DNA of 35,331 nt. Origin: Candidatus Ruminococcus equi. GTDB taxonomy: Bacteria; Bacillota; Clostridia; Oscillospirales; Acutalibacteraceae. Under the pieces are notes generated by a model. It ran no database searches, was not told the origin of the DNA, and worked only from the letters and a program-made list of their open reading frames with translations. The position numbers were made by a program, and so were the translations under genes. The DNA lies in contig JAGHTC010000004.1 of assembly GCA_018065465.1 (NCBI GenBank), positions 1 through 35,331 of the forward strand, given 5' to 3'. Positions 4,312-14,307 of the stretch are shown here, piece after piece (positions within the stretch are counted from its first letter, which is position 1; the number at the start of each line of letters is the position of its first letter).

Positions 4312-4662
4312 GGGGATGTAAAGGTTTCGACGGGGATGCAGAACTACGATAAGCGAGTAGCGGCGGGACACCGCTATAAAAGTTCCACCTTAAAATAAAC
4401 GACAAAAAATTTGCTCCAGTAGCACAATTAGCTGCTTAATGCGGCTCGTCTGCCTGCCTTAACCGCGAAGGCAGGATAAGGCGTCGATTAGCGGTAAATG
4501 TGAACAACCCACGCCTTTAAGTTGTCACAGATAAAAGGCTACCAAAACACAAAACCTGTTATTGGGTGTTGTGCAGAGGGAATGTCAATACAATAACTGC
4601 ACTCGGAGAAAGTCGTGGGGAAACATTTTCGGACGCGAGTTCGATTCTCGCCATCTCCACCA
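4312..4662 (+). ncRNA. ssrA: Transfer-messenger RNA
   Basis: 5' GGGGATGTAAAGGTTTCGACGGGGATGCAG; 3' ACGCGAGTTCGATTCTCGCCATCTCCACCA; acceptor GGGGATG/CATCTCC; tag ORF ...NDKKFAPVAQLAA* at 4398-4439. Confidence 0.95.
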
Positions 4663-4697
4663 AAAAAAACAGCATCGCATCGCGATGCTGTTTTTTT
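4663..4697 (+). terminator. tmRNA terminator
   Basis: AACAGCATCG-catcg-CGATGCTGTTTTTTT. Confidence 0.88.
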
Positions 4698-4699
4698 AT

Positions 4700-4894
4700 C
4701 CAAGCCGCAGGCTTGGTATATCATCCGCCGTAGGTGGTATATCACCAAAAACGGCAAAGCCATTTTTGTATCTCATCACGCCATAGGCGTGTATAAAATC
4801 TTTCTGTGGCTTGATGATATGCAACACTTCGTGTTGATGAAATACAATTCCTTACGGAATTGATGATATACAGCCCTTGCCGGCTGATAAGATA
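4700..4894. repeat. Tandem mini-hairpin array 2: 7 intact short hairpins plus one mismatched one, separated by eight 8-nt linkers (TATATCAT family; reverse complement ATGATATA in second half)
   Basis: Hairpins 4700-4716, 4725-4737, 4746-4768, 4777-4791, (4800-4813 mismatched), 4822-4836, 4845-4862, 4871-4886; linkers tatatcat, tatatcac, tatctcat, tataaaat | atgatatg, atgaaata, atgatata, ataagata. Confidence 0.88.
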
Positions 4895-4933: not shown

Positions 4934-4963
4934 TTGACAATGGCGCTTATTTCAATATATAAT
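4934..4963 (+). promoter_or_regulatory. Promoter TTGACA-N18-TATAAT
   Basis: Hexamers read directly, upstream of the CDS at 5002. Confidence 0.7.
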
Positions 4964-5001: not shown

Positions 5002-5550
5002 ATGGAAAACAAAAAACTTTTAGCTGTTCGAATAGTCAACATTGTGCTTATTCTCGGCGTTTTGGCATTGGGTATTATCAGAATTTCCAATCCGGTTTTT
5101 TCAAGCACTTTCGAAAAAGTCAACATCGCTGTTGCTTTTGTTGCTTTGGCTTTCGGTTTTGCTTATTTGCTCAGAGGATATAAAAAGGAATCTGCTATCT
5201 TCTACAAAGGTTTTATGATACTCTTTGTTCTGTCCTCGCTGTTTTCTTGCATTACCGATATTATTGCTCAGACAATCAAAGGTTCAAGTTATCTTACATC
5301 TATCTTTTTGACTTTCGTATTCTTTGGTGTTCTCGTTCTTGCTTTTATTCAAGATTTGGGAAGCAATGTTTCGTTTGTTATAGTAGGCGTTATTATTGCT
5401 ATTGACCTGTTTTTGCTTATATACACTTTGATCGCTATGAATGACATAAACTACATTGCATTTTCCGCCGGCAACTTTGTAACAGCATGCACAGCGGCTA
5501 CAATGATTTTTGCAAAATATATTGACAAAGCAAAACGCGGTACAGACTGA
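5002..5550 (+). CDS. Multi-pass membrane protein of unknown function
   Basis: Several hydrophobic segments; RBS-like GGAGGG upstream; own promoter and terminator. Confidence 0.8.
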   Translation: MENKKLLAVRIVNIVLILGVLALGIIRISNPVFSSTFEKVNIAVAFVALAFGFAYLLRGYKKESAIFYKGFMILFVLSSLFSCITDIIAQTIKGSSYLTSIFLTFVFFGVLVLAFIQDLGSNVSFVIVGVIIAIDLFLLIYTLIAMNDINYIAFSAGNFVTACTAATMIFAKYIDKAKRGTD

Positions 5551-14045: not shown

Positions 14046-14049
14046 TTTC

Positions 14050-14307
14050 TAAACCGTTGAGAAAGAGTAGTAGGTTTCATCAAATTTCCAAAGAGAGCCG
14101 TTGACGGTGGAAATACGGCGAAAAATATGAAACTGAATGGACTTTTGAGGGCAATCACAAAGGCTATGCCGAGTATGAAAGACGGGTGACTTCCGTAACA
14201 AAGTCAGCATATATCAATGTATGCGTGAGTGGATGCTTTTGCATCAAGCCGGGTGGCACCGCAGGTTCTTCCTGTCCCAGCAAGGTTGGGACAGGATTTT
14301 TTTATTT
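14050..14307 (+). promoter_or_regulatory. T-box leader, tryptophan specifier (TGG)
   Basis: T-box core GGGTGGCACCGCAGG (14251-14265); specifier candidate gaaTGGac at 14138-14140; TGGC of the T-box complements a GCCA 3' end, as expected for tRNA-Trp; terminator TCCTGTCCCA-gcaaggt-TGGGACAGGATTTTTTT. Confidence 0.9.

Follow-up and report, generated by a model that had tools for sequence, protein, structure and literature searches.

Tagged mini-hairpin arrays behind tRNA and tmRNA genes of gut Clostridia: a probably mobile family of DNA elements linked to PF05635 proteins

Among described systems, the REP/REPIN sequences with their RAYT (TnpA-REP) proteins resemble the arrays described here in being short tagged palindromes, intergenic and dispersed, and in being paired with the gene for a family-specific protein. 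The REP/RAYT tag is GTAG/CGTC and its partner is a transposase, whereas the arrays are tagged by an 8-nt linker that differs according to the protein, and their partner is a four-helix bundle; in addition, the stems are free within one array, and the array has an inverted two-half structure. Integron attC sites are similarly single-stranded hairpin DNA with variable parts, and arrays can, as with integrons, stand between successive accessory genes (loci L104, L142 and L148), but the arrays have many short hairpins and no attC core boxes. Group IIC introns share with the arrays the habit of settling directly behind intrinsic terminators; the arrays differ in having no association with a reverse transcriptase, a length of about 200 bp and no Rfam intron match.

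The PF05635 family occurs widely. It has no agreed function, and what is known of it is mainly its name, through rRNA intervening sequences and its relationship to Avd. In the 23S rRNA intervening sequences (23S_rRNA_IVP), as in the array units of relatives, a PF05635 protein belongs to an insertion at a stable-RNA gene. However, the intervening sequences sit inside the rRNA, whereas the array units are 3' of tRNA or tmRNA genes and carry mini-hairpin arrays, a terminator, a promoter and cargo. PF05635 genes are found in rRNA insertions (PMC11270868) and in cas loci (PMC3936711), and the protein resembles Avd of diversity-generating retroelements (PMC10053308). The target hairpin of these retroelements also has a free stem and a G..A loop in a defined orientation; varied GC-rich stems are tolerated there, and a GRNA loop is needed (PMC3240598). 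It is one hairpin of 7-10 bp, compared with about seven on linkers in the arrays, and the reverse transcriptase that the retroelements require is not associated with the arrays. The parallel is a functional one and not one of membership.

The window analysed here is a stretch of 35,331 nt from Candidatus Ruminococcus equi (contig JAGHTC010000004.1). At 4700-4894 it contains seven mini-hairpins (hp1 to hp7) in two halves of opposite orientation flanking a 22-nt centre, with three TATATCAT-type linkers in the left half and three ATGATATA-type linkers in the right half. With this change of linker direction the array forms an inverted repeat. Upstream of it is the tmRNA terminator and downstream a perfect TTGACA-18-TATAAT promoter, which belongs to the next gene. 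The features, with the basis of each in brackets, are as follows.

4312..4662, + strand: tmRNA gene, with the array 3' of it (ARAGORN; Rfam RF00023, 153.9 bits)
4662..4697, + strand: A-run, terminator hairpin AACAGCATCG..CGATGCTGTT, T-run (sequence)
4700..4716, no strand: hp1, CCAAGCC-gca-GGCTTGG, terminator-proximal (sequence)
4717..4724, - strand: left-half linker 1, TATATCAT (sequence, linker-match count)
4725..4737, no strand: hp2, CCGCC-gta-GGTGG, with a GNA loop and one G.T pair on the + strand (sequence)
4738..4745, - strand: left-half linker 2, TATATCAC (sequence, linker-match count)
4746..4768, no strand: hp3, CAAAAACGGC-aaa-GCCATTTTTG, with one A.C mismatch (sequence)
4769..4776, - strand: left-half linker 3, TATCTCAT, a variant that recurs at the linker-3 position in relatives (sequence)
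4777..4791, no strand: hp4, CACGCC-ata-GGCGTG, adjoining the centre (sequence)
4792..4813, no strand: centre, containing CTGTGGCTTG at 4804-4813 (sequence)
4814..4821, + strand: right-half linker 1, ATGATATG (sequence, linker-match count)
4822..4836, no strand: hp5, CAACAC-ttc-GTGTTG, with a GAA loop on the - strand (sequence)
4837..4844, + strand: right-half linker 2, ATGAAATA (sequence, linker-match count)
4845..4862, no strand: hp6, CAATTCC-ttac-GGAATTG, with a GTAA loop on the - strand (sequence)
4863..4870, + strand: right-half linker 3, ATGATATA (sequence, linker-match count)
4871..4886, no strand: hp7, CAGCC-cttgcc-GGCTG, the last hairpin, followed by trailing ATAAGATA (sequence)
4934..4963, + strand: promoter TTGACA-18-TATAAT of the downstream gene (12/12 consensus positions)
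5002..5550, + strand: downstream gene for a 182-aa membrane protein, family unassigned (sequence)

The seven hairpins had been described at these positions in an earlier note on this DNA, and all of them were recovered. The statement there that every linker is 8 nt is right for six linkers but fails for the gap between hp4 and hp5, which is 30 nt and consists of the centre plus linker ATGATATG; the arms, described as nearly perfectly self-complementary, are so overall, apart from the single G.T of hp2 and the single A.C of hp3. The note did not mention that the array is built of two inverted halves, that hp1 is complementary to the centre, or that most copies lie between a terminator and a promoter. 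In the window array the complementarity is between CAAGCCGCAG of hp1 (4701-4710; 5' arm plus loop) and CTGTGGCTTG of the centre. Linker matches with at most one mismatch number 19 in the window against 6.5 expected, and 0 of 100 shuffles reach 19. A search of the window against Rfam 15 at gathering score returned only tmRNA, T-box, SRP RNA and tRNA, with no family matching the array; the T-box leader at 14048-14282, which precedes a TrpB-like gene, and the small SRP RNA at 901-999, adjoining dnaX, are ordinary matches.

The genome has four arrays in all, each 3' of a tRNA or tmRNA gene. The three further arrays are behind tRNA-Met and tRNA-Leu (both type A, the type of the window array) and behind another tRNA-Leu (type B, of opposite polarity). 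Within the family, the strict two-linker pattern occurs in 58 of 201 genomes and in 51 of 136 genera, compared with 7 genomes for the reversed control, and a three-linker pattern matches at least 119 stretches in GTDB species genomes, almost all of which are from Clostridia/Oscillospiraceae MAGs of animal-gut origin. Most of the data are MAGs, for which mis-binning is possible, though array, tRNA and protein gene share the same contigs. Perfect hairpins, of at least 4 bp and spanning the whole segment between linkers, make up 69.4% of 683 inter-linker segments and 1.8% of shuffled ones, and 474 hairpins have 122 distinct 5' arms. The earlier note had argued for selection on structure with free stem sequence and against simple tandem duplication, and had made this depend on further genomic copies; these exist, and across them the linkers are conserved while the stems vary, which bears out both points. 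Plain tandem repeats of CCCTAAAGGGCATGATATAC are also present in the loci examined (L066 970-1214, L128 1-180), but their stems are all identical, where those of the arrays vary.

The type A arrays have a common order: the end of a tRNA or other gene, an A-run, the terminator, a T-run, AT, hp1, usually three TATATCAT linkers, the centre, usually three ATGATATA linkers, a last hairpin ending in TTGAT, and the next gene. In 54 of 102 type A arrays the first linker has the end of a same-strand tRNA or tmRNA gene no more than 110 nt upstream, and these genes comprise 14 kinds of tRNA and one tmRNA. At the other end, 36 of 100 copies have a TATAAT-like box 18 nt (34 copies) or 17/19 nt away from TTGAT; with shuffled flanks the share is 4%. 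For the most part, the elements sit immediately downstream of tRNA/tmRNA genes and other terminators. Of 98 arrays, 69 have complementarity of at least 9 nt between hp1 (5' arm plus loop) and the end of the centre, as against none of 490 shuffles and 23 of 200 mismatched array pairs; the difference between own and mismatched pairs implies that the match follows each array and is not only a shared motif. A ladder model, in which the left linkers pair with the right linkers, is not supported, given that TATCTCAT recurs at linker 3 without a compensating partner.

Several loci (L139 1-694, L347, L104, L142 and L148) have arrays in a row, or chains of array, gene or genes, terminator and array. 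These chains suggest serial gain of cargo units at one site. In a congener (L222) the region downstream of the tmRNA has an array on the - strand at about 1841-2100 with the linker GTGAAAT/ATTTCAC, and no ATGATATAC array. A comparison with the tmRNA regions of 30 congeners gave no clean empty site, these regions being too diverged to align, and no clear target-site duplication was found.

The two halves of the arrays favour opposite strands. Mismatches in unique stems, read on the + strand, are 39 G.T against 4 A.C in the left half and 2 G.T against 13 A.C in the right half. GNA or GNNA loops with a C-G closing pair, N being free, lie on the TATATCAT strand in 231 of 474 hairpins; loops of these types are known to form exceptionally stable DNA mini-hairpins (PMC4686876). 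In the other linker families the loop type is likewise tied to the strand of the linker, with the polarity reversed relative to the gene: TNC/TNNC outnumber GNA/GNNA by 22 to 3 in the left half, and GNA/GNNA outnumber TNC/TNNC by 14 to 1 in the right half. Stems shared by descent inflate these wobble and loop counts, some of which are not independent. Folding energies with DNA parameters follow the strand rule in the left half (68 against 29, p = 1e-7), and show no strand difference in the right half, so that the strand argument rests on the wobble and loop counts. Pairing on opposite strands in the two halves brings no gain to one continuous RNA, whereas two single strands can profit from it. 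Judged by these strand preferences, single-stranded DNA fits better than one RNA, in line with the earlier suggestion of single-stranded DNA as a candidate substrate.

The genes directly following type A arrays are varied, but many encode a four-helix-bundle protein of PF05635/TIGR02436 (E = 3e-19, 5e-21), after which comes a cargo gene that often overlaps the PF05635 stop codon. The layout in relatives is tRNA, terminator, array, promoter, PF05635 gene (Avd/IVP-like) and cargo. The closest solved structure by sequence to the array-linked protein is 2RLD (E = 5e-16). One array-adjacent PF05635 protein has 12 homologues of 85-90% identity in 12 different genera; the twelfth is cut by a contig end, and all 11 that could be tested have an array directly upstream, which in 10 cases follows a tRNA gene. 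PF05635 occurs in 38 of 43 genomes with hairpin-like arrays and in 58 of 158 without (p = 8e-10), where the 43 were picked by eye from the strict-pattern genomes and the unselected set gives p = 4e-7. The earlier remark that no acting protein is visible is correct for the window, where no PF05635 remnant is present; it does not extend to the relatives, in which a dedicated PF05635 gene adjoins the array. In the window this place is taken by the gene at 5002..5550, whose 182-aa product has no Pfam or NCBIfam match; in relatives PF05635 plus cargo or another cargo gene stands here. The window copy is a solo array without its protein gene, and the next gene is an unrelated membrane protein.

It is worth adding that the link does not hold for the whole of PF05635. 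Many generic PF05635 genes have no such array, among them the YKDLxVWQKSMDL type, and none of the PF05635 genes examined in the genome itself has a ATGATATAC array. In L155 (upstream of the PF05635 gene) and L162, YKDLxVWQKSMDL-type genes are flanked by short repeats of simple sequence, for example GGTTTTCAG or TAGTTTTTAG, and not by hairpin arrays.

More distant PF05635 subfamilies have the same two-half array design upstream, with other linkers (ATTCCATA, ATTACATA, ATATAAC, ATATCGC, ATTTCAC, ATTTAGC, TCATAAC and AATGAAG). Taking a score above the shuffled maximum as the threshold for an array at the 74 PF05635 loci, a two-halved linker array was found upstream of 47, with at least eight types of linker. 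The distances between linkers and between proteins are correlated (Mantel r = 0.57, 0/5000), and the correlation is similar for 10 representatives of less than 60% identity (r = 0.53, 56/5000). Co-inheritance of a compact unit could be a partial cause both of this correlation and of the high protein identity. The type B arrays (left ATGATAT, right ATATCAT) pair with a different PF05635 subfamily (MSDNKLLDLSFEFAV); they are found at L005 1420-1600, at L189-L191 and in L367 upstream of the PF05635 gene, and one of them has a tmRNA-like 3' end before it. Of the PF05635 loci with other linkers, two (L363 and L367) lie behind a tmRNA-like 3' end.

The identity of the array-linked protein between genera is exceptional: it is higher than that of RecR in all 66 genus pairs, with means of 87% and 61%, and the elements appear to pass from genus to genus. 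Near-identical copies also occur at different sites. In the MAG SIG656 (L043/L093; SVRZ01000020 and SVRZ01000022) two different tRNA genes are each followed by a copy of the terminator and most of the array, with 98% identity between the copies. The near-identical blocks in L043/L093 and in L024/L038 begin at the terminator A-run; as a rule, the sequence that loci share starts either there or with hp1 and stops where the last hairpin ends. In two congeners, the terminator plus array is 98.6% identical over 214 nt and the neighbouring gene 83%. This pair differs totally from the last linker on, one having promoter, PF05635 gene and cargo and the other not, which in this one species pair shows at the sequence level that what lies downstream has been exchanged at the last linker.

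Comparison of these sequences indicates that the arrays are a family of dispersed DNA elements that are probably mobile. On balance we think it somewhat more likely than not that the window array is a solo, non-autonomous copy of such an element, with a full form of terminator, array, promoter, PF05635 gene and cargo, and that the element works as follows. The array is most likely the recognition site of the cognate Avd-like four-helix-bundle protein, and we infer that mobility would be the function, the centre the active site and single-stranded DNA the substrate. The linker would act as a sequence tag read by the protein, while the palindromes would keep the array foldable into stable DNA mini-hairpins once one strand is exposed. 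For the type of the window array, exposure would concern the + strand on the left and the - strand on the right, as would be the case for the two 3' strands flanking a central break or nick, and by pairing with the centre hp1 could turn the left half into a closed, multi-branched structure. The array-bound protein might then guide strand exchange, together with host enzymes or a nuclease, and this exchange would spread the unit or swap whatever follows the last linker.

An origin from known element classes agrees poorly with the data. Membership of REP/RAYT was rejected, the linkers being of the TATATCAT/ATGATATA types with no GTAG/CGTC tag, and the genome having no Y1 transposase (PF01797). 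Non-autonomous IS200/IS605 elements have their end hairpins on the same strand, whereas here the wobble and loop bias switches strand between the halves. Free-stem hairpins beside a fixed tag do recall TnpA recognition, the earlier note had named IS200/IS605-type recognition, and Y1_Tnp is present in 98 of 201 family genomes; nevertheless it does not co-occur with the arrays in these genomes (p = 0.5-1.0), and IS200/IS605 ends act on one strand. An IS200/IS605 or RAYT element mobilised in trans by a Y1 transposase is accordingly the reading to which we give the least weight of all. The attC sites named in the same note also do not apply, as the GTTRRRY/RYYYAAC boxes are absent and neither the window nor the type A linkers have GTT/AAC boxes. 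A 23S rRNA intervening sequence was rejected on position, the window copy being 3' of the tmRNA and its relatives 3' of tRNA genes; the PF05635 protein is encoded by the array units in relatives and absent beside the window copy. A CRISPR array has identical repeats, and its spacers are unique and non-palindromic; here the repeats are 8-9 nt and the variable parts are palindromes. For a phage or plasmid origin, blastn gave only weak chance matches, and a viral contig scan gave 106 scattered stretches, judged as a group to be background. No reverse transcriptase (RVT_1) is present in the genome, and none is associated with the arrays in the 201 genomes (p = 0.2-0.5).

Three further explanations take the arrays to be something other than mobile units. 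They could be REP/BIME-like devices, cruciform-prone insulators that take up supercoils or serve as binding sites for gyrase or a nucleoid protein, with PF05635 as a host factor or passenger; this accords with the palindromes, with the place between a terminator and the next promoter, and with the persistence of solo copies such as that of the window without a protein gene. However, cruciforms on both strands would yield no strand asymmetry, the linker varies with the protein subfamily, and the PF05635 protein is far more alike between genera than RecR, and we regard this explanation as unlikely, though one to be taken seriously. A structured RNA seems to us more improbable again. It would make the array a 3' trailer of the tRNA/tmRNA transcript or a small RNA from it, serving for instance as decoy, processing signal or stabiliser, and in its favour are the very stable predicted RNA fold of the window array (z = -5.9), the tolerance of G.T wobble, and the location behind tRNA/tmRNA genes. 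But the array lies downstream of an intrinsic terminator and stops short of the following promoter, no Rfam family matches it, and no single RNA profits from wobble pairs and GNA loops that change strand between the halves. The arrays might, lastly, have no function, their palindromes being kept by template-switch quasi-palindrome correction and the arrays shuffled by homologous recombination. Close copies do gain and lose whole units of hairpin plus linker, but a mutational by-product leaves unexplained the single conserved linker, the dedicated neighbouring gene, the two fixed halves with usually three linkers each, and the strand-specific wobble and loops, and we consider it very improbable.

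Judged against Rfam, Pfam, NCBIfam and open-access PMC papers, the array family is undescribed. Returning to the reading as mobile elements, we tentatively propose, at something short of an even chance, that gut Clostridia contain a new class of mobile gene unit, in which proteins of the Avd/IVP type would read the linkers of their own single-stranded arrays, and would, without their own transposase, integrase or reverse transcriptase, move or exchange units of terminator, array, promoter and cargo behind tRNA/tmRNA genes. At a minimum, the arrays are a large, strand-asymmetric family of structured DNA that is absent from current annotation. The pairing of PF05635 with arrays of subfamily-specific linkers constitutes a testable recognition code, which would explain the purpose of the hairpins. 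If the view of linker-reading mobile units is true, it would provide the first molecular role for the orphan family PF05635 outside retroelements; and if the units move, the 3' ends of tRNA and tmRNA genes in gut Clostridia hold an unrecognised system of gene exchange.
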